Positions 5,533 through 50,284 of a stretch of DNA of 64,000 nucleotides are shown piece after piece. Within the stretch, counting starts at the first letter, position 1, and each line of letters begins with the position of its first letter. The notes under the pieces were generated by a model, which was given only the letters and a program-made list of their open reading frames with translations, was not told where the DNA came from and searched no databases. The stretch comes from Acrocarpospora catenulata (GTDB taxonomy: Bacteria > Actinomycetota > Actinomycetes > Streptosporangiales > Streptosporangiaceae): NCBI RefSeq assembly GCF_018476525.1, contig NZ_JAHCST010000021.1, positions 1-64,000 on the forward strand. The letters run 5' to 3'. Made by a program: the position numbers and the translations under genes.

Positions 5533-5558
5533 ACAATGTGGACATCATTCCACATTGT
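5533..5558. promoter_or_regulatory. Perfect palindromic operator (site 1, probable IclR site)
   Basis: Two perfect 10-bp arms, ACAATGTGGA and TCCACATTGT, are separated by CATCAT. The site lies between the fucosidase (start 5181) and the ABC operon (start 6040). A second copy with the same arm length and spacing is at 5901-5926. The only IclR-family gene of the block is at 13026-13829, so it is the first candidate for the binding protein. That assignment is inference. Confidence 0.65.
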
Positions 5559-5900: not shown

Positions 5901-5926
5901 CCATCTGGAATTGATTCCACATGGTA
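5901..5926. promoter_or_regulatory. Second copy of the palindromic operator (site 2)
   Basis: The arms GCCATCTGGA and TCCACATGGT, spaced by 6 nt (ATTGAT), match site 1 at 7 of 10 and 9 of 10 positions. The spacing is identical. It ends 113 nt before the GTG start of the ABC ATPase gene, a usual place for a promoter-proximal operator. Confidence 0.55.
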
Positions 5927-6039
5927 AGAATCGCGCGAGTAGTCGAGGAGCTCGGACGTGGCGAAGATGTTGCATCTGGCCATGCAAGCGCAGCATGCCG
6001 TCCTGGCGTGCGCGGCCCTGCGGAGCCCTGGAGTCCCTC

Positions 6040-7557
6040 GTGGCTGAAGCCGTTGCACCGATTCCCGTCCTGAGCGTGCGCAACGTCGCCAAGTCGTTCG
6101 GAGCCGCGATAGCGCTCCGCAAGGGTTGTCTTGACTCCTACGGCGGCAGCATTCACGCGCTCGTCGGTGAGAACGGTGCCGGCAAGTCGACGCTCGTCAA
6201 GGTCATCGCCGGGGTGCACCACCGCGACGGCGGTGAGTTTCTGCTGAGTGGTCGGCCGGTGGACTTCCGCAACACCGCCGAAGCCAAAGCGGCCGGGGTA
6301 GCGGTCATCTACCAGGAGCCGACTCTCTTCCCCGACCTGTCGGTCACCGAGAACATCTTCATGGGGCGTCAGCCGGTCCTGGGCCTCGGCCGTATTGACC
6401 GGCGGCGGATGCGCTCGGAGGCTGCCGATCTGCTGGAGCGCCTGGGCGTGAGGCTCAACCCCGATCGGGTTGCGCGAGGGCTGTCGATCGCGGACCAGCA
6501 GGTTATTGAGATCGCCAAGGCAATTTCGCTGGATGCCAAGGTCCTTGTGATGGACGAGCCGACCGCTGCTCTCAGTGGCGTCGAGGTTGATCGGCTATTC
6601 ACTATCACGCGAGCGCTGCGAGACGAGGGGCGTGCCATCATCTTCATCAGTCACCGCTTCGAGGAGATCTACTCCTTGTGCGACACCCTCACTGTGATGC
6701 GCGATGGGGAGTACGTCTCAGCGCACGCGATCGGGGATGTGACGGTCGACGAGGTAGTGCGCCGGATGGTCGGTCGTAGTGTGACCGACCTCTTCCCCAA
6801 GGAGGCCGCACCGGTCGGTGATGTCCGACTGCGCGTCGAGGGCCTGACGTCATCGGGCAAGTTCCACGACATCAACTTCGTCGTTCGCAGCGGAGAGATC
6901 GTGTGCCTTGCCGGGCTCGTCGGCTCCGGGCGCACGGAGATCGTCCGGGCCGTATTCGGTGTCGATGGTTACGACCGAGGAACGGTGACCGTCGACGGTC
7001 ACACTCTGCCCATGAAAAACCCTGCGGCTGCGATAGCTGCTGGCATCGCCCTCGTGCCGGAGGACCGGCGCAAGCAAGGTTTGGTGATGGACTTCTCGGT
7101 GCGGTCGAACATGTCACTTGCCGTCCGCGACCGGCTCTCCGTCCTTGGCATACTGCCCGCGCTGAAGGAAACCCGGCTTGCGATGAGCTGGGCCCACCGG
7201 CTCCAAGTCAAAACCTCGTCGCTGGACAGCCCGGTGGCCACCCTGAGCGGTGGAAATCAGCAGAAAGTCGTGCTCGGTAAGTGGCTGGCTACCGAGCCTC
7301 GAGTCCTCATCATCGACGAGCCGACCCGAGGGATCGATGTCGGCACCAAGTCCGAGGTGCACCGGCTGATGTCGGAGCTCGCCGGTCATGGCGTGGCGAT
7401 CCTCATGATTTCGTCCGAACTCCCTGAGGTTATCGGGATGGCCGACCGCGTGCTCGTCATGAAGGAAGGCCACATGACGGCTGAGCTGTCAAGAGCCGAT
7501 GCCAATCCGGAGACGGTGATGTACGCCGCGACGCACAGCGTGGAGAAATCGGCATGA
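6040..7557 (+). CDS. Sugar ABC transporter ATPase (RbsA/RhaT-like, two nucleotide-binding domains)
   Basis: A roughly 505-residue double ATPase of the carbohydrate CUT2 class. The N-terminal half has the Walker A GENGAGKST, a modified signature (LSIADQQVIEI) and VLVMDEPTAAL. The C-terminal half has the degenerate P-loop GLVGSGRTE typical of CUT2 proteins, VPEDRRKQGLV, the signature LSGGNQQKVVLGKW and IIDEPTRGIDVG. The frame is open back to 5821, but the GTG at 6040 fits the family N-terminus and has GGAG 7 nt upstream. Its stop overlaps the next ATG (ATGA). It energises import with the two permeases and the RhaS-like binding protein that follow. Confidence 0.9.
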   Translation: MAEAVAPIPVLSVRNVAKSFGAAIALRKGCLDSYGGSIHALVGENGAGKSTLVKVIAGVHHRDGGEFLLSGRPVDFRNTAEAKAAGVAVIYQEPTLFPDLSVTENIFMGRQPVLGLGRIDRRRMRSEAADLLERLGVRLNPDRVARGLSIADQQVIEIAKAISLDAKVLVMDEPTAALSGVEVDRLFTITRALRDEGRAIIFISHRFEEIYSLCDTLTVMRDGEYVSAHAIGDVTVDEVVRRMVGRSVTDLFPKEAAPVGDVRLRVEGLTSSGKFHDINFVVRSGEIVCLAGLVGSGRTEIVRAVFGVDGYDRGTVTVDGHTLPMKNPAAAIAAGIALVPEDRRKQGLVMDFSVRSNMSLAVRDRLSVLGILPALKETRLAMSWAHRLQVKTSSLDSPVATLSGGNQQKVVLGKWLATEPRVLIIDEPTRGIDVGTKSEVHRLMSELAGHGVAILMISSELPEVIGMADRVLVMKEGHMTAELSRADANPETVMYAATHSVEKSA

Positions 7558-8591
7558 CACAGTCCGCCGTGGTGCCCCCGGGTTCCAACGATGCCGTGCG
7601 CCTGGTGAGTCGGCTCTACCGGGCGCGTGAGGCGTCGATCCTCCTCGTCGTCGCACTGGTCGTGGTCGCGGCCACCGTGACGAGCCCGGACTTCCTCTTC
7701 AGCTCCAGCGGCTGGCGGGACCTGACGCTCGCCCCGTCCATCCTGATGATCCTGGCCGTCGGCGAAGCCATTGTGATCATCACCAGGAACGTGGACATCT
7801 CCGTTGGCGCGGTGCTCGGGTTCACGGCCTACTTCGCCGGCCGCGTCCTGACGGACTACCCAGGAGTTCCGGTCGTCGTGGTGTTCCTCCTGGGAACGCT
7901 GCTCGGTGCGCTCATGGGACTCTTCAACGGTCTGCTGGTCACCCTGCTTCGCGTCCCGGCGCTGGTGGTGACCCTGGGGACCCTCTACATCTTCCGCGGG
8001 ATCGACGTGTTGTGGGCCGGTGGCATCCGGATCATGCCAGGCGATCTGCCCAGCTCGTTCCTCGACCTGGGCACGAGCTCAATCCTCACCGTGCCCACTG
8101 TCACCATCATCGCGGTGTTCGTGGCGGCGGCCGCCGTCTGGTACATGAAGTGCACGCGGGGTGGGCGCACGTTCTATGCGATTGGCTCCGATCCGGACGC
8201 GGCTCGGTTGTACGGCCTGCCGACTGGCCGACGAGTCATCATCGCGCTGGCCACGTCCGGGGCCCTGGCGGGCTTCTCAGGGGTGCTGTACCTCTCGCGT
8301 TACGCCACGGCGGACTCGCAGGTAGGGACCGGCTGGGAGTTGCAGGCAATCGCCGCCGTCGTCATCGGCGGTATCGCGATCGCGGGCGGAAGCGGTTCCG
8401 TGGGGGGTGCGGCCTTGGGCGCGGTCCTGCTCATCACCATCAATCGGGCCCTGCCGGTACTGGGCATCCCCGATTTCTGGCAGCAGGCCGTCATCGGCGT
8501 TCTCATCCTCTTTGCGATCGTGACCGACCGCCTGCTGTTCATCCGAACCTCACACCAGCTCCTTGAGGCGAGGGAGACGACCAATGCTTGA
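7554..8591 (+). CDS. Sugar ABC transporter permease (CUT2/BPD_transp_2)
   Basis: A 345-residue integral membrane protein with about 9-10 hydrophobic segments. It carries the CUT2 permease hallmarks NVDISVGAVLGFTA near the N-terminal third and GSGSVGGAALGAVLL near the C-terminus. It starts with an ATG overlapping the ATPase stop by 4 nt and ends in an 8-nt overlap with the second permease. It probably forms a heterodimeric channel with the next gene product, as in RhaP/RhaQ-type importers. Confidence 0.88.
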   Translation: MTQSAVVPPGSNDAVRLVSRLYRAREASILLVVALVVVAATVTSPDFLFSSSGWRDLTLAPSILMILAVGEAIVIITRNVDISVGAVLGFTAYFAGRVLTDYPGVPVVVVFLLGTLLGALMGLFNGLLVTLLRVPALVVTLGTLYIFRGIDVLWAGGIRIMPGDLPSSFLDLGTSSILTVPTVTIIAVFVAAAAVWYMKCTRGGRTFYAIGSDPDAARLYGLPTGRRVIIALATSGALAGFSGVLYLSRYATADSQVGTGWELQAIAAVVIGGIAIAGGSGSVGGAALGAVLLITINRALPVLGIPDFWQQAVIGVLILFAIVTDRLLFIRTSHQLLEARETTNA

Positions 8592-9621
8592 CACCCCGGT
8601 GACGAATGAGCCTGGCGTGACTCGCGCGTACACTGTGCACGCGCGTGGCCTCTGGCATCGGTTGCTGGTGCGGCATGAAGCCGTGGTCCTGGTGGTCCTG
8701 GTCGTGGTGTGGATGTATGCCAACGCGGGCATCGCCGGCTTCGGCCGACCTATCACGCTGACGTTCCTGCTACTGGACGTGGCTCCCATCCTCTTGATGG
8801 TGTTGCCCATGACGCTGGTGATTATCTCCGGCGAGATCGACCTGTCGGTCGCCAGCGTGTTCGGGCTCGCGAGTGTCGTGCTCGGTGTGATGGTCAAAGC
8901 CGGTGTGCCGATCGCTCTGGCAGTGCTCACCGCGGGCCTGGTCGGTGTCGTGGCCGGACTCGTCAACGGGTTCCTGGTCACCGTGCTCGGATTGCCCTCA
9001 CTCGCTGTGACGATTGGAACCCTGGCGCTCTTCCGTGGCCTGGCGGTAGGTCTGCTGGGCACGAAAGCGGTGACGGAATTTCCACCGGGGTGGACGAGTT
9101 CGGCTCAGAGCACGATCGGTGACAGCGCGGTGCCGGTCATCGTAGTACCCATCGCCGTGCTGGCGATTGCCATAGGCGTGCTACTTCATCTGACGCCCTT
9201 CGGCCGGGGAGTGTACGCGGTAGGCCTGAGCGACGAGGCGGCGATCTTTTCGGGAGTGCTCGTCAAGCGCACGAAACTCGTGGTGTTCGCCCTTTCCGGG
9301 CTGTGTGCGGCATTGGCGGGCGTCTTCTACACCCTCCGGTTCGGCAACGCGATCGGCAGCAACGGTGTCGGGCTGGAGCTCGGCGTCATCGCCGCTGTCG
9401 TCCTGGGAGGAACATCCATCTTCGGAGGGCGCGGCTCGGTGGCAGGATCCGTGCTTGGCGCACTGCTCATCGCGGTTCTGGCCAGTGCGCTACGCCTGGC
9501 CAAGGTGCCGGCCAACGCGATCGACATCATCACCGGCGCGATTCTCGTCCTCTCCATCGCCGTCACTATGGCGATCCCCTTCTTCGCTCAGAGGTTCACA
9601 AGAGAACGACGAGCTGGTTAG
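8584..9621 (+). CDS. Second sugar ABC transporter permease (CUT2)
   Basis: A 345-residue membrane protein with the same architecture as its neighbour: IISGEIDLSVASVFGLASVV and, near the end, FGGRGSVAGSVLGALLI. The start chosen is the ATG at 8584, overlapping the upstream stop by 8 nt, with GGGAG about 9 nt before it. An in-frame start at 8563 would add seven Arg-rich residues and looks less likely. Two different permeases in one operon is the pattern of rhamnose/AI-2-type importers rather than the single-permease ribose type. Confidence 0.87.
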   Translation: MLDTPVTNEPGVTRAYTVHARGLWHRLLVRHEAVVLVVLVVVWMYANAGIAGFGRPITLTFLLLDVAPILLMVLPMTLVIISGEIDLSVASVFGLASVVLGVMVKAGVPIALAVLTAGLVGVVAGLVNGFLVTVLGLPSLAVTIGTLALFRGLAVGLLGTKAVTEFPPGWTSSAQSTIGDSAVPVIVVPIAVLAIAIGVLLHLTPFGRGVYAVGLSDEAAIFSGVLVKRTKLVVFALSGLCAALAGVFYTLRFGNAIGSNGVGLELGVIAAVVLGGTSIFGGRGSVAGSVLGALLIAVLASALRLAKVPANAIDIITGAILVLSIAVTMAIPFFAQRFTRERRAG

Positions 9622-9746
9622 TCACCCCCACCGTTATCGCAAGCCAGGGCTGAGGCCGCCCGAGCCGTGACGGCGCTGTACTCCCAAGCCGTTCTGTCAG
9701 CCCTGTCCAGATTCCCAACATTGATCCAGTGGAAAAGGAAAGTGGC

Positions 9747-10787
9747 ATGGTCCGCATCGGAATGATGATCCCCCGCCGTCAGGCGGTCACAACGGTCGTG
9801 ATCGCTGTGGCCGTCGCCGTCGCGGCAACCGCCTGTTCCGCCGACAGCCCGCCGACCGATGATCGTGGCTCCGGCCACTACTCGATCGCATTTGTGCCCA
9901 AGAATCTCGGCAATCCCTATTTCGTCGCTTCGGCCACAGATGGCAAGGCTGCGGTCGAAGAGTTCGGAGGAGAATTCCAGGAGGTTGCGCCCAGCCAGCC
10001 GACGCCGACCGGCCAGGTGCCGTTCCTCAACACGCTCATGCAGCAGGGTGTGGATGGCATCGCCATGGCCGCTGTCGACCCGAAGGCGCCATGCGACGCG
10101 ATGAACCAGGCACGCCGCACGGGCACCAAGGTCGTCACCTTCGACTCCGACACCGATCCGACATGCCGTGACCTGTTCATCAACTCGGCGACGGCGGAAG
10201 GGATCGCCAAGGCGCAGGTCGACATCATCTCCGAGCAGATCGGTGGAGCCGGGGAGGTGGCCATCATCTCGGGCGCGCCGAATGCACCGACCCAGAACAA
10301 GTGGATCGACCTGATGAAGAAAGACATCGCGGCGAACCATCCAGGCATCGAGGTGGTCGACGTCGTCTACGGCAACGACGACGACCAGCAGGCCTACGAC
10401 AAGATCGCCGGTCTGGTGACCAAGTACCCGGCTCTGAAAGGCATCATCGCCCCTGACACCGTCGCCATCGCGGCAGGCGGCCGCTACCTCCAGAAGTCGG
10501 AGCACAAGGGCAAGATCGCACTCACCGGTCTGGGACTGCCCAACCAGATGAAGCCCTACGTCATGGACGGTACCGTCACGAAGTTCGCCCTCTGGAACCC
10601 CGGCGATCTCGGCTACCTCGCCGCGCACGCGCTCAAGGCGCTGATCGACGGCACCATCACCGGTAAGCAGGGTGACAAATTCCAGGCCGGCAAGCTCGGC
10701 GAGTACGAGGTCGGCCAGGACGGCATGGTCCTGCTCGGTCAGCCGACGCTCTTCACCAAGGACAACATCGGCGACTTCAACTTCTGA
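9747..10787 (+). CDS. Periplasmic-type sugar-binding lipoprotein (RhaS/LsrB-like)
   Basis: A 346-residue substrate-binding protein of the peripla_BP_4 family. It has an N-terminal membrane segment and lipobox (VAATAC, Cys near residue 30), then the core beginning YSIAFVPKNLGNPYF. Phrases such as VTFDSDT, IAIAAGGRYLQ-type motifs and the stretch around LTGLGLPNQMKPYV are characteristic of RhaS/LsrB proteins that bind rhamnose or AI-2. The ATG at 9747 is preferred over the ORF start at 9729 because AAAGGAAAG sits just upstream. It is the fourth gene of the importer; the ligand is probably a 6-deoxyhexose, but this is inferred. Confidence 0.85.
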   Translation: MVRIGMMIPRRQAVTTVVIAVAVAVAATACSADSPPTDDRGSGHYSIAFVPKNLGNPYFVASATDGKAAVEEFGGEFQEVAPSQPTPTGQVPFLNTLMQQGVDGIAMAAVDPKAPCDAMNQARRTGTKVVTFDSDTDPTCRDLFINSATAEGIAKAQVDIISEQIGGAGEVAIISGAPNAPTQNKWIDLMKKDIAANHPGIEVVDVVYGNDDDQQAYDKIAGLVTKYPALKGIIAPDTVAIAAGGRYLQKSEHKGKIALTGLGLPNQMKPYVMDGTVTKFALWNPGDLGYLAAHALKALIDGTITGKQGDKFQAGKLGEYEVGQDGMVLLGQPTLFTKDNIGDFNF

Positions 10788-11059: not shown

Positions 11060-12127
11060 ATGACCAATTCCAACAACCTGAAACTGGGCTTCGCAGTACC
11101 AATTTTCGCCAATCCCGGCGTCGTGGACGTGCGCACCCCAAACTTCCAGCAGCTCGAGTGGCAGCCCGTCCTTGCCGCTGTGCAGGAGGCCGAGAGCCTG
11201 GGCTACGACTCGATCTGGGTCGCCGACCACATGTTTCTTGGACGCGACGGCGCGATCCTTGAGGGCTGGACGACGCTGTGCGTGTTGGCGGGCGCCACCA
11301 ATCGGATCAGGCTGGGAAACATCCACCTGGGAAACGGTTTCCGGTGGGCACCGCTCACGGCCAAGATGGCGGCGACGTTGGATGTCATCTCCGGCGGCCG
11401 GTTCGAGTTCTTCATCGACCCCGGCTGGCGTGAGCGCGAGCACGTCGGCTACGGGTTTGACTGGGAGCCCGACCGCTCGGTCCGAGCCGCGCAGGTCGGT
11501 GAGGCCGTCGAACTGTCTCGTCTACTGTGGACCGGCAAGCCCGTCGACTATCAAGGGCGTCACTACACCCTGAGTGGGGCCATCAGCACGCCGGTCCCGG
11601 TCCGCCAAGGCGGTCCACGTGTCTGGATCGGTGAGGCCTTCGACGAGGCGACGATGGATCTCGTCGCAAGGCACGCCGACGTCTGGAATTCGATGCCGGC
11701 TGGCATCGACGTCCTGCGCGACAAGATCGCGAAGGTCGACGCCGCCTGCGTGAGCCGCGGCCGAGACCCTCAGACATTGGAAAAGACGCTTGAGACGCAG
11801 GTCCTGGTGGTGGACAGTGAAGCCGAGTGGCGGCAATGGCTCGAAAGGTGGGACGCGATGCACGCGGCCCACCCGCCGGGAGACGCTATGACGGACTTCT
11901 TCGAGTTCGCGGCGCAAACCAACCCCCAGCTTGGTGCCGGGGTCGACGAGGCTCGGTTGCGGGACGAGTTCGTGATCGGCACCAAGGACGAGGTGATCGA
12001 CAAGCTGCGTGCCTACCAGCACTTGGGTATCAGTGAGGTGATCTGCTGGTTCATGGACTTCCCGGAAAGCACCACGATGACGGTGCTCGCGTCCGAGATC
12101 CGCCCGGCTCTGGAAGGTGGCCGATGA
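11060..12127 (+). CDS. LLM-class flavin-dependent oxidoreductase
   Basis: A 355-residue luciferase-like TIM-barrel protein. Family features are LGYDSIWVADHMF (residues 49-61), GATNRIRLGNIH, MAATLDVISGGRFEFFIDPGW, PVPVRQGGPRVWIGE and an FVIGTKDEVIDKL tail. Members use FMN or F420 to oxidise diverse substrates; the sequence alone does not decide which. The ATG at 11060 has GGGAG 9 nt upstream. It lies after the ABC importer and before an SDR, so it probably acts on the imported compound. Confidence 0.8.
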   Translation: MTNSNNLKLGFAVPIFANPGVVDVRTPNFQQLEWQPVLAAVQEAESLGYDSIWVADHMFLGRDGAILEGWTTLCVLAGATNRIRLGNIHLGNGFRWAPLTAKMAATLDVISGGRFEFFIDPGWREREHVGYGFDWEPDRSVRAAQVGEAVELSRLLWTGKPVDYQGRHYTLSGAISTPVPVRQGGPRVWIGEAFDEATMDLVARHADVWNSMPAGIDVLRDKIAKVDAACVSRGRDPQTLEKTLETQVLVVDSEAEWRQWLERWDAMHAAHPPGDAMTDFFEFAAQTNPQLGAGVDEARLRDEFVIGTKDEVIDKLRAYQHLGISEVICWFMDFPESTTMTVLASEIRPALEGGR

Positions 12128-12218
12128 GTAGCCCTGTGTCAAGCCGCCGCCTGTTGACCCGGCGGCACCTCGGCTGCATCAGCAGTCACATGACTACCGA
12201 CGATAGGGTGGCACACCA

Positions 12219-12971
12219 GTGAATGAGGCCGCGGTCGTGACGGGTGCCGCGTCGGGTGTCGGAGCGGCAGTGACCACCACGCTGCTGGAGCGCGGCGTGC
12301 TGGTCGTCGGCGTCGACAGGAACTGGGCTGAGGGGGCCGAGCGGCCAGGCCTTGTGCGCGTCTCCGGCTCTGTGTCGGAGCAGTCGACGTGGCGGCAAGT
12401 GACAGATGAGATCAGGCGGCGTGAGGACGTGACGCTGTCGATGATGGTGATTAACGCGGCCCGCCTGGTGGTCGGCAATCTGCTTGACCTCGATGAGGAA
12501 GAGATCCGCGGCGTATTCGATGTCAACGTGTACGGCGCCGTGCGGGCTGTGCGCAGCTGTCTGCCACTGATGCTGGCGGCGGGCGGCGGGCGGATCGTCG
12601 CCGTCGCCAGCGTGGACGCCCTCTACGCGGAGAAGGACCTGGCGGCCTACTGCATGTCCAAGGGAGCGCTTCTCCAACTCGTCCGCACACTCGCCGTGGA
12701 CTTCGGCGGGCAGGGGATCCGGGCCAACGCGGTCTGCCCCGGAGCAATCGACACACCGTTCTTCCGACAGCACGTCGAGGCAGCGAGTGATCCCGAGGCG
12801 TTTCTCAAGATCAAGACGCAGCGGCATCCCTCGGGTCGCATCCTGCGGCCGGAGGACGTCGCGTCCGCGGTGCTCTACCTGTTGTCAGTGGAGTCACTCG
12901 GTATCAATGGGGCCCACCTGATGGTCGATGGCGGCCTGACAGCGACCTTCGACTACCAGCCACCGCTCTGA
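12219..12971 (+). CDS. Short-chain dehydrogenase/reductase
   Basis: A 250-residue SDR with TGAASGVG at the N-terminus, a Ser in VASVDALY, the catalytic pair in YCMSKGA and CPGAIDTPFF. The usual NNAG is replaced by INAA. The GTG start at 12219 has only a weak GGGTGG upstream. It probably continues the transcription unit of the importer and LLM gene, ending at the strong hairpin at 12984. Substrate unknown. Confidence 0.8.
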   Translation: MNEAAVVTGAASGVGAAVTTTLLERGVLVVGVDRNWAEGAERPGLVRVSGSVSEQSTWRQVTDEIRRREDVTLSMMVINAARLVVGNLLDLDEEEIRGVFDVNVYGAVRAVRSCLPLMLAAGGGRIVAVASVDALYAEKDLAAYCMSKGALLQLVRTLAVDFGGQGIRANAVCPGAIDTPFFRQHVEAASDPEAFLKIKTQRHPSGRILRPEDVASAVLYLLSVESLGINGAHLMVDGGLTATFDYQPPL

Positions 12972-12983
12972 CGCGCGGCACCC

Positions 12984-13016
12984 CCGCGGCATGACCCCGT
13001 TGTGATCATGCCGCGG
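12984..13016. terminator. Bidirectional terminator hairpin between convergent genes
   Basis: A perfect 11-bp inverted repeat, CCGCGGCATGA and TCATGCCGCGG, with an 11-nt loop. It lies exactly between the stops of the SDR gene (12971, plus) and the IclR gene (13026, minus), as expected for a shared terminator. No T-tract is present, which is common in high-GC actinomycetes. Confidence 0.75.
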
Positions 13017-13025
13017 CTGCTGGGC

Positions 13026-13829
13026 TCAGGCTGGTTGGTCGGCCGCGGCTGGGTTCGCCGACGTATCGGCACCCCCGGACATGGCGAGGGATGCCCGCCG
13101 AGCGGCATTGATCACGGCCGCGACCAGGTGCTCCCTGGTGGGCTGGTAACGCGACGATGGACACGAGACGGTGAAGGCACCGACCGTGCGGCCGGAGGTG
13201 ACAATTGGGGCGGCGACACACGTCACGTCCAGGGCGAACTCTTCCAGGTCTATGGAGTAGCCGCGGGTGCGGATCCGGTCGAGCTCCAAGGCGAACTCGT
13301 CAGGATCGGTGATGGTGTGCGGCGTCAGGGGTTCAAGCCGGTGCTTGGCCAGGTATTCATCCCGCAGCCCCGGGCGCGCGTACGCCAGCAGAAGCTTGCC
13401 GGACGCGCGGGCATGAGCGTGGGCGTGCGTACCTCGTGGCACCTGCGCGACTCGCACGGAATGGCTGCCCTCGGCGGTAGCCACCACCTCGATCTCGCCT
13501 CGGCGCCACGTCGACAGGTAGGCGGTCTCGCCCGTGGTGGCAGCCAGCTCACGCATGGGTGCGATCAGGTCGTCGATCGGCTCGCCCTGCTCTAGGTAGG
13601 CATCACCCAGCGCTCCGATCCTGGGACCAAGCCGGTAGCCCCGGTCGTCGCCCTTCACTAGTGCCCCCTCTGCCACGAGGGTGTTGAGCAGGTGGTACGT
13701 GGTGGGCAGAGGGGCGCGCATGAACTGACTGAGCTCTTTGGCCGCTACGGGCATGTCCTGGGAGGCGATGTAAGCCAGCGCAGTGAACGCCTTCGACACG
13801 GACGCGATGCGTCGCTCGGCCTTATCCAT
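13026..13829 (-). CDS. IclR-family transcriptional regulator
   Basis: A 267-residue regulator with an N-terminal winged helix (SVSKAFTALAYIAS... LSQFMRAPLPTTYHLLNTLV, about residues 10-60) and a C-terminal IclR effector domain (YLSTWRRGEIEVVATA, ASGKLLLAYARP, RTRGYSIDLEEFALDVTCVAAPI). IclR proteins typically sense small organic acids or sugar-derived ligands. It is divergent from the E1 gene at 14006. Related palindromes with ACAATG half-sites occur at 5533, 5901, 13904 and 18301, which suggests it controls the whole block, including itself. Confidence 0.88.
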   Translation of the reverse strand: MDKAERRIASVSKAFTALAYIASQDMPVAAKELSQFMRAPLPTTYHLLNTLVAEGALVKGDDRGYRLGPRIGALGDAYLEQGEPIDDLIAPMRELAATTGETAYLSTWRRGEIEVVATAEGSHSVRVAQVPRGTHAHAHARASGKLLLAYARPGLRDEYLAKHRLEPLTPHTITDPDEFALELDRIRTRGYSIDLEEFALDVTCVAAPIVTSGRTVGAFTVSCPSSRYQPTREHLVAAVINAARRASLAMSGGADTSANPAAADQPA

Positions 13830-13903
13830 GACTCGATGCTCTCATTCTTTTCACATGGCGATGTGCATTGTGTCAGGGACCCCGCCCTGACCCGGCGATT
13901 CTA

Positions 13904-13930
13904 ACAATGCGAAAGCTATGTTCACAAAGT
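13904..13930. promoter_or_regulatory. Imperfect copy of the ACAATG palindrome upstream of the E1 gene
   Basis: ACAATGCGAA and TTCACAAAGT, spaced by 7 nt, match the arms of the 5533 site at 8 and 7 of 10 positions. It lies in the divergent IclR/E1 intergenic region, 76 nt before the E1 start. Weak on its own; supported only by the other copies. Confidence 0.4.
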
Positions 13931-14005
13931 TCAAATCGTGTGGAACACTTCAGCCAGCGCCGCACCGCCGCGCAGCGTCCAGAACATCGATCCGTCGGAG
14001 TATTC

Positions 14006-15973
14006 GTGAGCAACCACCAGCTGACGCCAACCGAGGCCTACCGGCGCATGGCCTTCATCCGCCGTTTCGAGGAGGAGGTGCTTGAGCTCGGCCGCGACGG
14101 ACACATCGCCGGCTCCATCCACCCCTGCCATGGCCAAGAGGCGATTCCCGTGGGCGCCATGGCCGCCCTGACCGCGCAGGACCGTGTCCTCTCCACGTAC
14201 CGGGGTCACGGGTGGGCTCTGGCTTGTGGCGTGGACCCGACCGCGCTGATGGCGGAGATCGCTCAACGCGGTGCGGGCGTTAACGGTGGTCGGGCCGGTT
14301 CGCCGCTGCTCAGCGACCCCGCCCAAGGTTTCCTGGGGGAGAACTCGATCGTCGGAGCGGGCGTTCCCATCGCGGCGGGCGTCGCGTTGGCCGGCACACT
14401 TCAGGGGACGAAGAGAGTCGTGCTGACATCCATCGGTGACGGTGCCATGAACCAGGGATCCGTGACCGAGGGCATGGTTTTCGCCGCCGCGAGGAAGCTG
14501 CCGCTCATCATCCTCTGCGAGAACAACGGATGGTCGGAGATGACCCCGATCTCCGCGACGACTCGCGGAGAGCATCTGGCCCGGCGAGGTCAAGGACTCG
14601 GGATCCACAGTCAGGTCGTCGACGGCGGTGACCCCGTCGCCGTCGCGGAGGCTGTCTCCGCCGCGGCCGAGGTGTGCCGAGCAGGCGAAGGGCCTGTGCT
14701 CATCGAGTGCAAGACAGTCCGCCTCTCCGGGCACTACAACAAGGACATCCAGCACTACCGCCCACAAGACGACATCGAGCGGGCCCAGGCAGGCGACCCC
14801 CTCGCACGGCTGGTCGCCATGGCGGACGGACTCTCGGCTGAGGAGGTAGCTGCCATCTCCGCCGACGTCGACGCCGAGGTCTCGCGCATCGGTCAGGCGG
14901 TGCGCGAGATGGATCCCCCCAAGACACACGACGTGCTCGATCACCTGTACGCCCCCGCGGTCAAGGTCCCCGCCGCGGCCACGAAGGTGGTCGAAAAGGA
15001 ACTGCCGTTCAACCGGGCAGTCAACGAAGCGCTCAAGGATGCGATGCGGCGCCGCCAGGATGTCGTCGTCTACGGTGAAGATGTTGGCGTCGCCGGCGGC
15101 GTCTTCGGGGTGACCCGGGGACTGCAGAAGGAGTTCGGCGTTGAGCGGGTGTTCGACACCCCGATCGCCGAGGCGGCCATCCTCGGCTCAGCGGTGGGAG
15201 CGGCACTGGAAGGTCTTCGCCCGGTCGTGGAGATCATGTGGGCGGACTTCGTCTTCGTGGCCCTCGACCAGATCGTCAACCAGGCCGCGAACATCCGGTA
15301 CATCAATCGGTCGCAATTGGCCGCGCCGCTCGTCATACGCATGCAGCAAGGCGTGACTCCCGGGTCATGCGCGCAACACTCACAAAGCATCGAGGCGATC
15401 TTGGCGCACATCCCGGGCATCAAGGTAGGACTGCCCTCTACGCCGCAGGATGCCTACGCCATGTCGCTGGCCGCTATCGAGGACCCAGACCCCGTCGTCC
15501 TCATCGAGCACCGTTCCATGTACCAGGACACCGGAACCGTCCGCCTCGCCGGCGTGACCGAGCGAGCCGAGGGTGCCCGCCTGCGCCGAGATGGGTCCGA
15601 CGTCGCGATCATCACGTGGGGTTCCATGGTCGCCCCAGCACTGGAGGCGGCGCGGCAACTCACCGAGTCAGGCATCGAGGCGAGCGTTCTAGACCTCCGC
15701 TGGCTGCGCCCATTGGATGATCGCGCCATCGCCGAGGTCGTCGCCCACTGCGGTGGCAAGGTGGTGGTCGCCCACGAGGCCATTCTCACAGGTGGCTTCG
15801 GCGCGGAAGTCGCCGCCCGGATCACGGAGCGGCATTTCAGCACACTGACGGCTCCGGTTGCTCGTGTCGGGACCCCAGATGTGCGAATCCCCTCGGCTCC
15901 GGCACTCCAGCGTGCGATAGTCCCGGGGGTGGACGACCTCGTGGACGCCATCCGCAAGCAGATCGCGCACTAA
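14006..15973 (+). CDS. 2-oxoacid dehydrogenase E1, alpha and beta subunits fused
   Basis: A 655-residue thiamine-diphosphate enzyme with E1-alpha (residues about 5-330) fused to E1-beta (about 335-655). The alpha half has FEEEVLELGRDGHIAGSIH, RGHGWALA and the TPP motif starting GDGAMNQG and ending ENNGW. The beta half has VVVYGEDVG, DTPIAEAAILGSAVGAALEG, EIMWADF and PGSCAQHSQ. It resembles acetoin or branched-chain-type E1 proteins. The frame is open from 13868, but the GTG at 14006 has GGAG 5 nt upstream and fits the family start. It would decarboxylate a 2-oxoacid and needs an E2 and E3; no lipoyl domain or E3 is encoded nearby, only the odd E2-like protein at 16293. Confidence 0.88.
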   Translation: MSNHQLTPTEAYRRMAFIRRFEEEVLELGRDGHIAGSIHPCHGQEAIPVGAMAALTAQDRVLSTYRGHGWALACGVDPTALMAEIAQRGAGVNGGRAGSPLLSDPAQGFLGENSIVGAGVPIAAGVALAGTLQGTKRVVLTSIGDGAMNQGSVTEGMVFAAARKLPLIILCENNGWSEMTPISATTRGEHLARRGQGLGIHSQVVDGGDPVAVAEAVSAAAEVCRAGEGPVLIECKTVRLSGHYNKDIQHYRPQDDIERAQAGDPLARLVAMADGLSAEEVAAISADVDAEVSRIGQAVREMDPPKTHDVLDHLYAPAVKVPAAATKVVEKELPFNRAVNEALKDAMRRRQDVVVYGEDVGVAGGVFGVTRGLQKEFGVERVFDTPIAEAAILGSAVGAALEGLRPVVEIMWADFVFVALDQIVNQAANIRYINRSQLAAPLVIRMQQGVTPGSCAQHSQSIEAILAHIPGIKVGLPSTPQDAYAMSLAAIEDPDPVVLIEHRSMYQDTGTVRLAGVTERAEGARLRRDGSDVAIITWGSMVAPALEAARQLTESGIEASVLDLRWLRPLDDRAIAEVVAHCGGKVVVAHEAILTGGFGAEVAARITERHFSTLTAPVARVGTPDVRIPSAPALQRAIVPGVDDLVDAIRKQIAH

Positions 15974-15978
15974 AGGTC

Positions 15979-16296
15979 GTGGAATTCCTGGTGAGGATCC
16001 AGATCGACACCGGTGATCTGCAGGCGGCCGCCGTCGACGCCCTGCGCGCGGAGGAAGCCGTGCGGGCACGTGCTCTTGCGGAGAGCGGTGTCCTGCGACG
16101 CCTGTGGCGCATCCCCGGGCAGTGGGCCAATTGGGGACTCTGGATGGCCTATGACGAGGCCGAACTCCAGGCGGTCCTCGACTCGCTTCCCCTCCGTCCC
16201 TACATGCACATCGACATCAACGCGCTCGACTCGCACCCCAACGACCCCGAGACGCCCGGCCAGAAGGCCAAGAACATGAGAGGAAGTGTCGCATGA
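15979..16296 (+). CDS. Muconolactone delta-isomerase-fold protein
   Basis: A 105-residue protein of the muconolactone isomerase family (PF02426). It begins MEFLVRIQIDTGDL and has the conserved centre LRRLWRIPGQWANWGLW and the ending LPLRPYMHIDINAL-HP. CatC proteins isomerise muconolactone in the beta-ketoadipate pathway, but no other gene of that pathway is near. The GTG at 15979 starts 5 nt after the E1 stop, with AAAGG close in front. Its last 4 nt overlap the next gene (ATGA). Position within a 2-oxoacid dehydrogenase operon suggests a different lactone or enol substrate. Confidence 0.75.
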   Translation: MEFLVRIQIDTGDLQAAAVDALRAEEAVRARALAESGVLRRLWRIPGQWANWGLWMAYDEAELQAVLDSLPLRPYMHIDINALDSHPNDPETPGQKAKNMRGSVA

Positions 16297-16994
16297 CGGC
16301 CGCTGCGTGGGTTCTCGAGCCGCTTCCCGAGATCGTCCTCCAATCCCGCTCGGCGAGCGAAGTTCCGGTCGCGCCTGACCCGGTGTCCGTAGTCGCGCGA
16401 TCGGACGGGGCCTGCCGGCTGTCCCGGGCGACGGTCGAGGTCGACGTGACCACGGTCGAGATGATGTGTGATGGCACCTCCGCGCATGTCTATGCCGTCG
16501 CCGTGGTCCGCGCGCTGGCACGCCACCCACACCTGAACCGCCCGCCCCTGGGCCGCAAGAGCGTCGATCTGCTGGTGGACACCTACGGCCCTTCTTCTGC
16601 CGTGCCCATTGTCATTCGAGGAGCCGACCAGCTGACAGCGGCGACCATCAGGTCCCGCATGGACGCGTCGAGCGAGACCGGTTCGACGGCCATAGGCGCT
16701 CCCAGCGCGGCTCCCTCTTTCGCTTTTACCCATAGCGGGGCACTGGGCCTACTGGGCAACAGCCGGCTCAGCGGCCCGGCTGACGTCGCGACCTTGAATG
16801 TCGGAGCGTCCCGACGCCAGCCGCGTGCCCTACTCGACGCCGCGGGCGGCGAAGTGATCGCCGTCCGATCGGTCGCATGGCTCACCCTCACCTACGACTC
16901 GGGCGTCGGCACACAGGAGGTCGCGGCTTTCCTGGCCACGGTCCGAGCGTTCCTGGAGGACCGGGCCTGGCTGAAGGCGCAGTTCGAGAATTGA
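16293..16994 (+). CDS. E2 acyltransferase-like protein without lipoyl domain or catalytic His/Asp
   Basis: A 233-residue protein matching only the catalytic domain of 2-oxoacid dehydrogenase E2. Recognisable parts are AHVYAVAVVRALARHPHLN, AVPIVIRGADQLTAATI and the segment around TYDSGVGTQEVAAFLATVRAFLED. In working E2 proteins the last region reads DHRxxDG; here it is DSGVGTQ (about residues 202-208), so the catalytic His and Asp are both absent. No lipoyl or subunit-binding domain is present. It overlaps the preceding stop by ATGA and is clearly co-expressed with E1. It may be structural, may bind an acyl-CoA, or may be a non-functional relic; the intact frame argues against simple decay. 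Confidence 0.65.
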   Translation: MTAAAWVLEPLPEIVLQSRSASEVPVAPDPVSVVARSDGACRLSRATVEVDVTTVEMMCDGTSAHVYAVAVVRALARHPHLNRPPLGRKSVDLLVDTYGPSSAVPIVIRGADQLTAATIRSRMDASSETGSTAIGAPSAAPSFAFTHSGALGLLGNSRLSGPADVATLNVGASRRQPRALLDAAGGEVIAVRSVAWLTLTYDSGVGTQEVAAFLATVRAFLEDRAWLKAQFEN

Positions 16995-17028
16995 AATTCA
17001 CCACCCAACTTGCCCCATGGAGAACCAC

Positions 17029-17550
17029 ATGATCATCGGCCTGCTGCACCACGGTGTCACAGTGTCCGACATCGAAAAGGCAATCGCTTGGTACCGCGAC
17101 GTGCTCGGGCTCGAGTTCGTGCACCGGCAGCGTCAGGAGAACGCCTACACCCCGGTGCTCGTGGGCGTTCCCGGTGCCGTGCTGGAGGTCGCACAGTTTC
17201 GAGTGCCGTCCCCGTTGCCGCGCCTGTCGACCCACGACGTCGAACTGATCCAGTACGTCACCGCGGGCGTCGATGGCGTGCCCGTTCCGGTGAACCAGGT
17301 GGGCACCGCGCACCTGGCTTTCCTGGTCACCGAGATCGAGGCCCTGTACGCGAAGGCGATGACCGGCGGAGCGGTGTTCCGCAATGCTCCGACAGCCATC
17401 ACTGAGGGCGCGAACGCGGGTGGGCTCGGTTGCTACCTGCACGACCCCGACGGCAATACGCTGGAGTTCATCCAGCCCTCGCCCATCCGACTCGACCGGA
17501 TGCGGGCGCTACTCGCGCAGCATGTCATACCATCCAGCCGCCACCATTGA
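17029..17550 (+). CDS. VOC superfamily protein (glyoxalase/epimerase/dioxygenase fold)
   Basis: A 173-residue protein with two beta-alpha-beta-beta-beta modules: MIIGLLHHGVTVSDIEKAIAWYRDVLGLEF at the start and GCYLHDPDGNTLEFIQPS near the end. Candidate metal ligands are His8, a His in HLAFLV and the Glu in TLEF. The start at 17029 is chosen because GGAG lies 6 nt upstream; the ATG at 17017 has no RBS. It is the last plus-strand gene of the block and overlaps the convergent SDR by 26 bp. Methylmalonyl-CoA-epimerase-like and extradiol-like roles are both possible. Confidence 0.75.
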   Translation: MIIGLLHHGVTVSDIEKAIAWYRDVLGLEFVHRQRQENAYTPVLVGVPGAVLEVAQFRVPSPLPRLSTHDVELIQYVTAGVDGVPVPVNQVGTAHLAFLVTEIEALYAKAMTGGAVFRNAPTAITEGANAGGLGCYLHDPDGNTLEFIQPSPIRLDRMRALLAQHVIPSSRHH

Positions 17551-18265
17551 CATTGATGGTCTGCCCGCTCACATAGCTCGCGGCGTCCGAGATGAGGAAG
17601 GACACCACCGCAGCCACCTCCTCCGCAGTGCCAAAGCGCTCCAATGGGATCGCGGCCCGCATGCTGGCGCGTTCATCCTCGGAGTAGGAGTTGGCGATCA
17701 TTGGCGTCTCGATGAGTCCCGGGGCCACACAGTTGACGCGAATACCCTGGCGTCCGTGCTGCGCCGCCATGGTCATGCCCAACCCGATGACACCTGCCTT
17801 CGATGCCGAGTAGCTCGGCGCCGCAAACTGCGACTTGGTGCGGCCTGACTGCGAGGAGAGGAAGACGAGGGTACCCCCGGTGCCATGGGCCATGGCCGCC
17901 ACCACCGCACGGCTCACGAGATAAGTGCCCCTGAGGTTGACATCGAGCACGCGGTCCCAGGCCGCCTCCTCCACGTCGAGAATCGTTCCCCGCTGATAAA
18001 TCCCTGCGGCGGTGACCAGCCCTCGAAGAAGCCCAGTTGCGCTGGCCGCCGCAATCCCCTCCTGCACCGAGGTCGCCTCTGTAACGTCGACGCGGCGGTA
18101 TCCGACGTCGAAACCCTCGGCGGCGAGAGCGGATGACGCTGTCCGCAGGGCCTCCTCATTGAGGTCGAAGAGGAAGACACGGTGGCCGTCTCGCCCCAGG
18201 GCAGCCGCGCAGGCCAAGCCAATACCACTGGCTCCACCGGTAACGATCACGGTCGAACGCTCCAC
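17525..18265 (-). CDS. Short-chain dehydrogenase/reductase
   Basis: A 246-residue classical SDR: TGGASGIG at residues about 9-16, VDVTEATS, YSASKAGVIGLGMTMA with the Tyr-Lys pair, and VAPGLIETPM. The C-terminus SGQTINVNGGGWMV is typical of the FabG/sugar-dehydrogenase group. It converges on the VOC gene with a 26-bp overlap. A palindrome-like site with ACAAT half-sites is 36 nt upstream, so it may share the regulator of the block. Confidence 0.82.
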   Translation of the reverse strand: MERSTVIVTGGASGIGLACAAALGRDGHRVFLFDLNEEALRTASSALAAEGFDVGYRRVDVTEATSVQEGIAAASATGLLRGLVTAAGIYQRGTILDVEEAAWDRVLDVNLRGTYLVSRAVVAAMAHGTGGTLVFLSSQSGRTKSQFAAPSYSASKAGVIGLGMTMAAQHGRQGIRVNCVAPGLIETPMIANSYSEDERASMRAAIPLERFGTAEEVAAVVSFLISDAASYVSGQTINVNGGGWMV

Positions 18266-21174: not shown

Positions 21175-21211
21175 TTTGTCGTCGGTCTTTCCGACGAGGA
21201 ATGGGAGTCTC

Positions 21212-23887
21212 ATGCCTGCCGCACCGATCGACCTTCGCGTGAACGGCCGCCGCGCACCGCTCGGCATGGATGCGCGCACGCCCGAGTTCGGCTGGCGCCT
21301 CCCCGCGGTCACCGCCGATCAGGTGGCGTGGGAGGTGCAGGTCACCGAGGGGCCCGACGCCGCGACGGGACGGCGGGTGTGGGAGACCGGTCGAGTCGAG
21401 GGCGCCGAGCGCTCGGGCGTGTCGTACGGTGGCGACGAATTGGAGTCCGGTGCCGCTTACACATGGCGGGTGCGCGTCTGGGAAGCGCTGTACGACGAGC
21501 CAGGTCCGTGGAGCGAGCCGGCGCGCTTCGAGACGGGTCTGCTGCGAATGTCGGACTGGTCGGCGGCGTGGGTGACCGACCCGGCCCAGCCCGCTGAGAA
21601 GGACCCGGCGGCCGTGTACCTGCGGGGGGTAGCGCAGCTGCCCGCGGACGTCGTCCGGGCCCGCGCGTACGTGTCGTCGCTGGGATGGCATCGGCTCTTC
21701 GTCAACGGACACGACATCACCGGGACGGCGCTGGTTCCTCGTTGGACGCCGTTCGACCACGAGGTCGAGTATGTGACCTACGACGTGACCAGCGCCTTCG
21801 CTCGTGGGGCGAACGTCGTCGCCCTTGCGCTCGGCGACGGTCGTTTCCGGGGCTCGCTCGGCTTCGAGAACCACCGCGCGGTGTACGGCGACCGGCTGGC
21901 CGGTCTCGTTCAGGTGCACCTGGAGCTGGCGGACGGCACGACACAGGTGACCGTCAGCGACGGCACATGGCGCGCCGCCGGCGGGCGCATCACGAGCGCC
22001 GACCCGAAGACCGGCGAGCGCGTCGACCTGCGGATCCCAGACGACGACTGGCTGCGCTCCGCAGAGCATCCCGCCCGATTCCGGCCCGTCGAGGTCCTCT
22101 CCGAGCCGAGAACGCTCGTTGCTGAGAGCGTCGAACGCGTCCAGCAGGTCGGCGAGTTGGCGCCGCAGCGCATCCGGCGCCTGCCGTCGGGCAAGCAGGT
22201 CGTCGACTTCGGTCAGAACTTCGCCGGGGTCGTGCGCATCCGGCTCCGCGGGCCGGCGGGCGCCCGGGTGACACTGGCGCACTCGGAGATCGAGCGCCCT
22301 GACGGCGAGCTCGACCTCGATTACATCCACGTTTTCCCGGTCGGCCGGTGGTACCAGCGTGATGTCGTGGTCCTGGACGGCGACGACGCGTTCTGGCAGC
22401 CGTGGTTCACGATCCACGGCTTCCGCTACGTGTCCGTCGAGGGCCTGGCGGCCGATCTCGCGCCTGAGGACGTGCGTGGAATCGTGATCTCCTCCGATCT
22501 GGAGCAGACCGGGCAGTTCCACAGCTCCGACGCGCGGCTGAACCAGCTGTGGAGCAACGTCGGATGGTCCCTGCGGTCGAACTTCATGGACACCTCCACC
22601 TGCGACCCGACGCGGGAACGGTCCGGGTGGACCGGGGACATCCAGGTGTTCGCGCCGACGGCCACCGCCTACGTGGGCGCGCAGTCATACCTGCGGCGCT
22701 ACCTTCGCAGCCTCGCTCTCGAACAGGCGGTGGACGGCACGATCCCCGTCGTCATCCCGTCGTCGTTCTCGACGTTCTCGGGCGGCCCGCGCGGGCGGCT
22801 CAAGTCAGCCGGCACCGCCGCGGGATGGAGCGACGCGAGCGTCCTGATCCCGTGGACCCTGTACCGGTACTACGGGGACGTGCAGGTGCTGCGCGACCAG
22901 TACGACTCGATGGTCGCCTGGGTCGAGCATTGCGAGAGGCGCGCCGCGGGCGTCTCCAGCCGTGCCCGCCGCAGGAAGGGAACCGGGCGCCCCGAGATCG
23001 AGCGGTACATCGTCGACACCGGCTTCCAGTTCGGCGAGTGGCTACGTCCCGGTGAGAACCCCTTCCTGTCGGCCATCGACGGCCGAAGGCGCGGCGCCGT
23101 CGTCGCCACGGCATACTTCGAGCACTCCGCACGGATCCTCTCCCAGATAGCCGATGTCCTCGGACGACCGGAGGAGGAGCGGCGGTTCCGAGAGCTGGCG
23201 GACCGCACACGCGAGGCGTGGCGCGCCGCGTTCCTCGCCGCCGATGGACGCATCGGCACCGATCGGCAGGACGACTATGTGCGCGCCCTCGCTTTCGGCC
23301 TCCTCGACCCGGCCGAGCGCGCGGCGGCCCTCGAACGTCTGCTGACACTGATCGACCGCGCCGGCGGACACCTGGGAACCGGCTTCCTGTCGACGCCGCT
23401 CCTGCTGGACGTGCTCGTCGCGGAAGGACGCCCGGACGTCGCCTGGAAGCTGCTCATGCAGGACACGAACCCCTCATGGCTCTACCAGGTCAACCGCGGC
23501 GCGACCACCGTTTGGGAGACATGGGAGGGCTACACCCGTTCCGGCAAGGCGAAGATGAGCCACAACCACTTCGCCTTCGGTTCGGTCGCTCGCTTCCTCA
23601 CCGAGCACATCGCCGGCATCACCCCCATCGAACCCGGATACCGCATCATCGGCGTGACACCGTCAATCGGCGGTGGACTCACATCCGCGCAGGCAACCAT
23701 CCGGACCCCCTACGGTGAGGTCCTGAGCGCGTGGACGCGTGACGGCGACGAGGTCGAGTTCCGAGTCACCGTCCCGGCCGGGGCACAGGCACAGTTCCAC
23801 CCCCTCGGCGACACCCAAGCTCAGCAGCTCCCACCCGGCACTCACGTCCTACGCCGTGCCGCGGCTGCACTGCGCGTTGAAGACTGA
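21212..23887 (+). CDS. Alpha-L-rhamnosidase, GH78, cytoplasmic
   Basis: An 891-residue GH78 enzyme (EC 3.2.1.40). N-terminal fibronectin-like and beta-sandwich domains (LRVNGRRAPLG..., WRVRVWE, AYVSSLGWHRLFVNG) precede the (alpha/alpha)6 barrel. The barrel has TCDPTRERSGWTGDIQVFAPTA, which holds the expected acidic catalytic region, then WSDASVLIPWTLYRYYGD and GATTVWETWEGY, and a C-terminal beta domain. No signal peptide is seen, so it would act on imported rhamnosides. ATG 21212 has GGAG 5 nt upstream. Divergent from the MarR gene. Confidence 0.9.
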   Translation: MPAAPIDLRVNGRRAPLGMDARTPEFGWRLPAVTADQVAWEVQVTEGPDAATGRRVWETGRVEGAERSGVSYGGDELESGAAYTWRVRVWEALYDEPGPWSEPARFETGLLRMSDWSAAWVTDPAQPAEKDPAAVYLRGVAQLPADVVRARAYVSSLGWHRLFVNGHDITGTALVPRWTPFDHEVEYVTYDVTSAFARGANVVALALGDGRFRGSLGFENHRAVYGDRLAGLVQVHLELADGTTQVTVSDGTWRAAGGRITSADPKTGERVDLRIPDDDWLRSAEHPARFRPVEVLSEPRTLVAESVERVQQVGELAPQRIRRLPSGKQVVDFGQNFAGVVRIRLRGPAGARVTLAHSEIERPDGELDLDYIHVFPVGRWYQRDVVVLDGDDAFWQPWFTIHGFRYVSVEGLAADLAPEDVRGIVISSDLEQTGQFHSSDARLNQLWSNVGWSLRSNFMDTSTCDPTRERSGWTGDIQVFAPTATAYVGAQSYLRRYLRSLALEQAVDGTIPVVIPSSFSTFSGGPRGRLKSAGTAAGWSDASVLIPWTLYRYYGDVQVLRDQYDSMVAWVEHCERRAAGVSSRARRRKGTGRPEIERYIVDTGFQFGEWLRPGENPFLSAIDGRRRGAVVATAYFEHSARILSQIADVLGRPEEERRFRELADRTREAWRAAFLAADGRIGTDRQDDYVRALAFGLLDPAERAAALERLLTLIDRAGGHLGTGFLSTPLLLDVLVAEGRPDVAWKLLMQDTNPSWLYQVNRGATTVWETWEGYTRSGKAKMSHNHFAFGSVARFLTEHIAGITPIEPGYRIIGVTPSIGGGLTSAQATIRTPYGEVLSAWTRDGDEVEFRVTVPAGAQAQFHPLGDTQAQQLPPGTHVLRRAAAALRVED

Positions 23888-50275: not shown

Positions 50276-50284
50276 GAAGGGGGC

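Follow-up and report, generated by a model that had tools for sequence, protein, structure and literature searches.

Sugars can be broken down without phosphorylation when they are oxidised to a lactone that is opened and dehydrated to a 2-oxo-3-deoxy acid, from which Route I leads to pyruvate and glycolaldehyde, Route II to alpha-ketoglutarate and Route III, by a dehydrogenase and a hydrolase, to pyruvate and glycolate or lactate (PMC6336799). The main text of that paper contains no occurrence of 'E1 component' or 'thiamine'. Here we analyse a gene module at positions 11060-18265 of a 64,000-nucleotide stretch of the Acrocarpospora catenulata genome (contig NZ_JAHCST010000021.1, positions 1 to 64,000; hereafter the window), in which a fused thiamine pyrophosphate (TPP)-dependent E1 of the 2-oxoacid dehydrogenase type stands directly before a protein of the muconolactone isomerase family (hereafter MIase).

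The neighbourhoods of the module and its relatives share with Routes I-III the dehydrogenase family, candidate members of the lactonase and dehydratase families and the ATP-binding cassette (ABC) importers for sugars, but the exit that we propose for the E1, an oxidative decarboxylation to an acyl-CoA, would be unlike the ends of those routes. The 2-oxoacid dehydrogenase complexes (pyruvate dehydrogenase, branched-chain and acetoin type) have the same full E1 alpha and beta domains with TPP and histidine motifs, and relatives of the module on the Rhodococcus plasmid pWB1 (WB1) and in genome G401 have lipoyl partners. In contrast, alpha and beta are fused in the window E1, and its partner is an MIase-family protein, which in WB1 is fused to the E2; the TPP-binding and catalytic histidine motifs of such a complex were found, whereas a lipoyl E2 with HxxxDG and an E3 were found neither at the locus nor elsewhere in the window. 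Muconolactone isomerase and 5-chloromuconolactone dehalogenase (CatC/ClcF) belong to the same Pfam family, which the window MIase matches over its full length with shared LWR, LP and HP positions; it differs from them in its score (67 bits for the muconolactone isomerase model TIGR03221, below the equivalog cut-off of 130.6), in the lack of any intradiol dioxygenase match on its contig and in being linked to an E1 instead. Finally, the bacterial L-rhamnose operon with its RhaFGHJ/RhaSTPQ importer (PMC3870299) has the importer type that lies upstream of the module, and the window importer is 53-67% identical to the genome's own canonical copy; however, it falls below the RhaS cut-off, the operon that holds isomerase, kinase and RhaEW is on another contig, and the control region carries other palindromes.

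Gene organization of the module

Genes were called by open reading frame (ORF) analysis and protein-family profile searches of the window genes, and all coordinates are window positions unless a locus or contig is named. The fused E1 alpha/beta (14006-15973, plus strand) matches E1_dh with 222 bits, Transket_pyr with 132.9 and Transketolase_C with 113.3, and in alignment it keeps the TPP motif and the catalytic-histidine regions. Its ORF opens at 13868 with TTG, while the GTG at 14006 has GGAG before it; the queries used in E1 searches were cut at 13997. After a gap of 5 nucleotides comes the MIase-family protein (15979-16296, plus; PF02426, 98.2 bits), which overlaps by 4 nucleotides with an E2-like protein (16293-16994, plus; PF00198, 22.1 bits against a cut-off of 23), and a gap of 22 nucleotides leads to a vicinal oxygen chelate (VOC) protein (17017-17550, plus; family profile). 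A divergent IclR regulator gene (13026-13829, minus; family profile) divides this E1 half from a second half made of a luciferase-like monooxygenase (LLM)-class oxidoreductase (11060-12127, plus; Bac_luciferase, 169.9 bits, with TIGR03560 as best model but below its cut-off) and a short-chain dehydrogenase/reductase, SDR1 (12219-12971, plus; family profile). The convergent SDR2 (17525-18265, minus; family profile) is an uncertain member. None of the eight module reading frames has an internal stop. The gene identities and positions given by a sequence-only reading of this DNA were borne out by these calls, although its list, whose genes are all present, had left the IclR gene unmentioned; its description of the genes as tightly coupled holds for E1-MIase-E2-VOC but not for the LLM-SDR part, which lies beyond IclR, or for the last, convergent SDR.

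The E1-MIase pair in other genomes

The module is a small, sparsely distributed bacterial E1-MIase unit, which in WB1 includes a complete lipoyl E2 of its own and in the window is reduced. When the E1 was searched against plasmids by tblastn (1e-100) we obtained 62 records, and among the best 40 of these the best matches were Rhodococcus pWB1 (69% identity), Arthrobacter sulfonylureivorans p1 (62%), two Streptomyces chartreusis plasmids (55%) and a Paracoccus plasmid (54%). At 1e-135 the E1 was found in 12 of 337 genomes of the family, the window's included, with three close others (G625, G588 and G592; 58-67%), and all three carry an MIase within about 3 kb. In a tree of 25 E1s the window E1 falls in a clade of eight with support of 100/100, and six of the eight carry a nearby MIase: the two genes are direct neighbours in WB1, G588, S. 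chartreusis, G592 and the window, and in G625 they are separated by about 3 kb. At 1e-150 only the window's own genome matched among 396 genomes of the phylum (three candidates scored per genome here and in the family search, no positive control), and at 1e-160 none of 116 and none of 116 genomes of two other families did (ten candidates per genome, no positive control), so that these absences are soft.

The clade has a sister pair of split E1s, from Rhodococcus RHA1 and Streptomyces NBC_00046, which showed no MIase in about 22 kb each. As a control, all of eight more remote fused E1s from this family (about 42% identity) were without MIase or lipoyl matches in the fetched stretches of 12.6-17 kb. 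A second fused E1 is present in the window's own genome (contig C46, 142209-144116; 42% identity), with no lipoyl E2 near it; a weak amidohydrolase match and an SDR lie about 6-8 kb off. The label 'MIase' changes four times on the tree, against 6.3 times for shuffled labels, and 17 of 500 shuffles were as low. The four changes arise because G401 lies far away and two clade members have no MIase, and on this tree the pairing would either have arisen more than once or have been lost more than once.

Two loci show how the MIase can be joined to lipoyl chemistry. The gene after E1 on pWB1 encodes a single chain with MIase (residues 3-91), Biotin_lipoyl (117-188), E3_binding (225-259) and 2-oxoacid_dh (327-557) domains, and this fusion passes the actinobacterial SucB cut-off (518.2 against 423.45). 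In G401 the order is MIase, split E1beta, E1alpha and a separate lipoyl-domain protein of 80 residues, with ETSKVEAEV at the expected lysine position. The WB1 fusion and the G401 set thus link the MIase with lipoyl-type E1 genes at two loci of different construction. The proposal of a TPP-dependent E1 working with a lactone-isomerase-fold protein in a catabolic-looking module is supported by this recurrence, and a description of the pairing was not found among the papers listed from the open-access literature searched, which agrees with the statement that no described pathway has this set. The literal trio of E1, MIase and short E2, whose search had been suggested as a check, was seen only here (with the fused full version in WB1); it is the E1-MIase pair that recurs. 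A dehydrogenase complex in a sugar setting was also noticed on a Clostridioides difficile plasmid (L117, 8010-12939), where an E1alpha-E1beta-E2-E3 set lies beside GH43 and cellulase-family genes and a phosphotransferase system.

A degenerate E2 beside the pair

The solved relatives of the E2-like protein are the catalytic domains of pyruvate- and 2-oxoglutarate-dehydrogenase E2s. We aligned it with five E2s (WB1, three from the window's genome and one from an acidobacterial metagenome-assembled genome, MAG); all five keep the HxxxDG (DHRxxDG) motif, which the E2-like protein lacks, and it also misses stretches of the N-terminal half of the catalytic domain. The lipoyl and E3-binding region of WB1, used as query, gave no match in the window at 1e-4, and two E3 queries gave none at 1e-5, so that the absence of E3 and lipoyl domain noted by the sequence-only reading stands. 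Nor is there space for a lipoyl domain between MIase and E2-like protein, because their genes overlap by 4 nucleotides. As judged from its sequence, then, the window 'E2' is a degenerate catalytic-domain remnant with no lipoyl domain, E3-binding domain or HxxxDG motif, and the window copy may once have had a WB1-like arrangement whose lipoyl and E3-binding parts were lost. The remnant is probably still translated, because its frame is open for 233 codons, its third-position GC of 0.80 is like that of its neighbours and it has a Shine-Dalgarno-like GAGAGGAAG.

The suggestion that this short E2 is a working third member fails, since it is without the catalytic motif and has no close copy in the family, and since pWB1 has a full-length E2 fused to MIase. 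At 1e-18 only one of 341 family genomes, the window's own, matched (up to eight candidates scored per genome in the E2-like scans). At 1e-6 the query matched 308 of 345 genomes of the class; among the matches listed, the best relative besides its own copy was 34% identical over residues 67-225 (4e-15), and the remaining rows showed 28-37% identity, nearly all in long open frames, as for ordinary full-length E2s. An E2-like pattern scan of the genome contigs gave 275 pattern matches and a single relative, an acidobacterial MAG E2. PADLOC gave no matches for the MIase and the E2-like protein, and the AlphaFold model of the E2-like protein alone was unusable (mean pLDDT 34.3). In the whole genome the E3-binding domain is confined to three E2s, on contigs C2, C143 and C152, and therefore no complete E2 is encoded beside the window E1. 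A disulfide reductase related to dihydrolipoamide dehydrogenase (32% to an LpdA) lies about 57 kb from the E1, beyond the window (contig C96; L088, 8983-10506).

The MIase-family protein

In a profile search the window MIase was the sole PF02426 match in its genome. Its solved relatives are chloromuconolactone dehalogenase and muconolactone isomerase, and it retains the E, LWR, LP and HP positions common to the solved isomerases. MIase relatives shift a proton in muconolactone. We considered whether it is the missing CatC of this genome, and rejected this. The genome's intradiol dioxygenase (PF00775) matches were on contigs C1 and C111 only and none was on the module contig, in line with the remark that no other beta-ketoadipate gene is present.

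At 1e-5 any MIase match occurred in 66 of 338 family genomes, the window's own counted. Tandem MIase domains or genes, two in number, were seen in several family genomes (L046, L048-L052, L055, L057, L059, L061 and L070); in L046, L049, L050, L055 and L070 the tandem adjoins an SDR, with no E1 match within the loci of about 3 kb. In genome G506 (L080, 4274-9646) an MIase (49%) occurs without an E1 nearby, and LLM-type ORFs and a CoA-transferase-like ORF were noticed by eye close to it. On a Rhodococcus opacus plasmid (L119, 8001-8279) an MIase-family gene is clustered with genes annotated as dioxygenases, one for an alpha/beta hydrolase and tetrahydrofolate C1 genes.

Sugar-type neighbours and the second importer

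The neighbours of MIase-bearing E1 loci are mostly of sugar type. In the window, an amidohydrolase_2 protein resembling L-fucono-1,5-lactonase, which might provide a lactonase step (1530-2474, minus; PF04909, 86.4 bits), is followed by a SnoaL-SDR fusion (2471-3649, minus; PF12680, 59.7 bits, and PF13561, 189.3 bits), a GH29 alpha-L-fucosidase (3790-5181, minus; PF01120, 249.8 bits) and an ABC sugar importer of RhaSTPQ type by profiles (5971-10787, plus) with ATPase, two permeases and a binding protein (9729-10787); the ATPase ORF opens at 5821, and 5971 is the start used in queries. On the other side of the module lies an alpha-L-rhamnosidase (21176-23887, plus; PF17389, 320 bits). SMP-30 (SGL) lactonases occur in WB1, G588 and G401, mandelate-racemase-family proteins closest to sugar-acid dehydratases in WB1 and G625, an amidohydrolase_2 gene in the S. 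chartreusis locus and a GH127 gene in G592, and sugar importer genes were found in G625 (Peripla_BP_4) and, by eye, in G588 and G592.

The window importer and the canonical importer on contig C67 are paralogues (binding protein 54%, ATPase 67%, permease 53%). The C67 rhamnose operon (L131, 38000-57900) comprises a LacI-type regulator, a RhaSTPQ-type importer, RhaI, RhaEW and a rhamnulokinase-like protein. RhaS (394.7 bits), RhaI (643.7) and RhaEW (1053.2) all score over their cut-offs there, and the rhamnulokinase-like protein reaches 452.9 bits against a cut-off of 527.95. RhaEW was over its cut-off on C67 only, and an isomerase and a kinase were sought in the window by eye only. Because the canonical operon on C67 passes all the RhaS, RhaI and RhaEW cut-offs, the window importer is a second copy beside different enzymes, and this arrangement suggests that the substrate is not free rhamnose but another deoxysugar or a sugar derivative. 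A role as plain rhamnose importer was considered and rejected.

A proposed route and its alternatives

We tentatively favour the reading that the module is catabolic and serves a sugar that enters through the second RhaS-type importer and is degraded by a seemingly undescribed route with E1 and MIase. This sugar would probably be a 6-deoxyhexose, or a derivative of one, outside the range of the genome's rhamnose operon. The substrate, product, order of steps, MIase reaction and use of a borrowed E2 that we infer are as follows. After uptake an SDR would oxidise the sugar to a lactone, which would be opened by the fuconolactonase-like amidohydrolase in the window or by an SMP-30 lactonase in the relatives, and a mandelate-racemase-family dehydratase, seen in two relatives, would dehydrate the acid to a 2-oxo-3-deoxy acid. 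The MIase-like protein would then isomerise an enol or enol-lactone form by shifting a proton, and the fused E1, with TPP, would decarboxylate a 2-oxo acid oxidatively and load the resulting acyl group onto a lipoyl domain, from which it would reach CoA. Because the carrier is missing here and only the dead E2 remnant is left, the window E1 would need to borrow a lipoyl E2 and an E3 from another complex of the cell.

A bolder form of this route, which we regard as unlikely, would make it a fourth ending of non-phosphorylative sugar breakdown, by an 'E1-isomerase' complex whose MIase-fold domain presents the isomerised 2-oxo-3-deoxy sugar acid to the TPP E1 to yield a shortened hydroxyacyl-CoA; in WB1 the isomerase, lipoyl carrier, E1/E3-binding domain and acyltransferase would be united in one polypeptide. 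If the pairing works as proposed, a lactone-isomerase domain has become an integral part of a 2-oxoacid dehydrogenase complex, and sugar breakdown gains a CoA-forming exit besides Routes I-III. It would also caution against calling such MIase genes beta-ketoadipate enzymes.

Several observations weigh against the sugar route. Two clade members, the E1s of A. sulfonylureivorans (62%) and Paracoccus (54%), have no MIase match within about 30 kb; the former has an annotated Rieske protein and a tripartite ATP-independent periplasmic (TRAP) transporter alongside, and the latter, by eye, an FAD monooxygenase and an ABC transporter of amino-acid type. IclR genes also stand beside E1s without MIase (A. 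sulfonylureivorans 39%, Paracoccus 39%, NBC_00046 34%, RHA1 33%). No lipoyl gene adjoins the module E1 in five of the seven E1-MIase loci (window, G588, G625, G592 and S. chartreusis), and because of this a lipoyl-independent reaction is possible; in G592 a complete E2 stands beside another E1 end, at a distance of about 8 kb. The proteins assigned to the single steps fall short of their model cut-offs: the importer binding protein reaches 316.1 bits for RhaS (TIGR02637) against a cut-off of 342.25, the fuconolactonase-like amidohydrolase 114.5 bits for NF052480 (FuconLaconase) against 400, and the mandelate-racemase-family proteins of WB1 and G625, nearest to sugar-acid dehydratases, stay below the equivalog cut-offs. 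As queries these candidate dehydratases gave no match in the window, where other dehydratase families were not searched. Furthermore, the S. chartreusis locus has a hydrolase like 2,4-didehydro-3-deoxy-L-rhamnonate hydrolase (157.3 bits against a cut-off of 500), so that the E1 need not replace a route-ending hydrolase, and the G401 neighbours are mixed, with a CoA-transferase-like gene by eye.

The main rival, to which we assign a low probability, is that the E1 acts as a cleaving enzyme on a 1,2-diketone or hydroxyketone, which Gfo/Idh/MocA and IolM-like dehydrogenases would produce from a cyclitol or 3-keto sugar. Acetoin dehydrogenase cleaves such ketones, and TPP enzymes act on cyclic diketones in inositol breakdown. 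The relatives offer suitable genes: one over the IolM cut-off (488.2 against 450) two genes upstream of E1 in S. chartreusis, an IolM-like Zn-dehydrogenase (185.1 bits, below the cut-off), a Gfo/Idh/MocA protein and a sugar isomerase/epimerase in WB1, and a Gfo/Idh/MocA protein right after E1 with an AP_endonuc_2 protein in G592. However, no such dehydrogenases were seen near the window E1, and the lactonases and mandelate-racemase-family dehydratases of the relatives fit aldonic acids better.

A further possibility, less probable again, is that the MIase-like domain is a structural partner and not a catalyst. E1 may then be positioned by MIase or by the E2 core, and the window remnant would be a dead scaffold subunit. 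Proteins of the MIase family form homodecamers (PMC4835899), which would suit such a role, as would the fusion to E2 in WB1 and the open, neighbour-like frame of the remnant. Against this stand the retained isomerase positions of the MIase and the absence of a remnant of this kind beside MIase in S. chartreusis, G588, G625, G592 and G401. In addition, E1 usually docks at the E3-binding domain, which the remnant lacks.

We give little credence to an aromatic or lactone route in which the MIase isomerises an enol-lactone in a beta-ketoadipate-like sequence and the LLM performs ring oxidation, which was the flavour of the sequence-only reading. It can invoke a genuine PF02426 protein with the solved relatives named above, the oxygenase-type genes that adjoin the two related MIase-less E1s and the 31% match to the window LLM about 4.5 kb from the MIase without E1 in G506. 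The MIase score below the equivalog cut-off argues against it, as do the position of the genome's intradiol dioxygenase matches on other contigs and the mostly sugar-type neighbours of the MIase-bearing E1 loci. Moreover, by tblastn at 1e-4 the window LLM had no match in the six other E1-MIase loci (L071, L073, L076-L079), so that a place for the LLM in the conserved core of the system is not supported.

Least probable of all is a decaying or chance neighbourhood whose E1 and MIase have ceased to cooperate, as might be read from an E2 without lipoyl domain, E3-binding domain and catalytic motif and from the lack of any lipoyl match in the window. Against it stand the intact TPP and histidine motifs of the E1, its identity of 67-69% to the copies of WB1, G588 and G625 and the frames of the module genes, all free of internal stops.

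Accessory genes and candidate regulatory DNA

The IclR regulator is 63% identical to the window copy in WB1, 61% in G625, 43% in G592 and 39% in G588, and had no match in the S. chartreusis or G401 loci. Because of these two absences and its presence beside MIase-less E1s, IclR follows E1 rather than the E1-MIase pair. The VOC protein is 61% identical in G592, 38% in S. chartreusis and 33% in G588, and SDR1 is 56% identical to the G592 SDR that lies directly before VOC-MIase-E1. Some observations, the G506 locus among them, speak against dismissing the LLM outright: an unrelated-looking LLM-type ORF was seen by eye about 6 kb from the MIase in G401 (L079), and the A. sulfonylureivorans E1, which has no MIase, is accompanied at about 11-13 kb by an annotated LLM and a VOC gene.

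Two palindromes are candidate operators, ACAATGTGGA-N6-TCCACATTGT at 5533-5558, between fucosidase and importer, and CCATCTGGAAT-N2-ATTCCACATGG at 5901-5924, before the importer. They are alike, of the type ATGTGGA..TCCACAT, and none was found before the C67 rhamnose operon. Their consensus has two matches in the window with 0.05 expected, a figure that understates chance since the consensus was written from those two matches. A 15-base similarity between the importer gap and the IclR/E1 gap is one of several such matches. The octamer TGTGGAAT, looked for after the fact in 13 stretches, occurs twice in the fucosidase/importer gap and once at 59628 in the window. The 30-kb WB1 locus has exactly two copies, one preceding E1 and the other IclR, and the S. 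chartreusis locus has a single copy that precedes VOC-E1-MIase. The octamer was also present once each in L072, L088 and L131 and absent from L074, L076-L079, L087 and L132, so that four other E1-MIase loci are without it. These positions are suggestive of a candidate IclR operator in three loci. Elsewhere in the window (44149-53026) a DeoR-type regulator, a sugar kinase, a GlpD-like protein, an ABC sugar importer and an aldolase-like protein were noticed by eye and make up another sugar locus.

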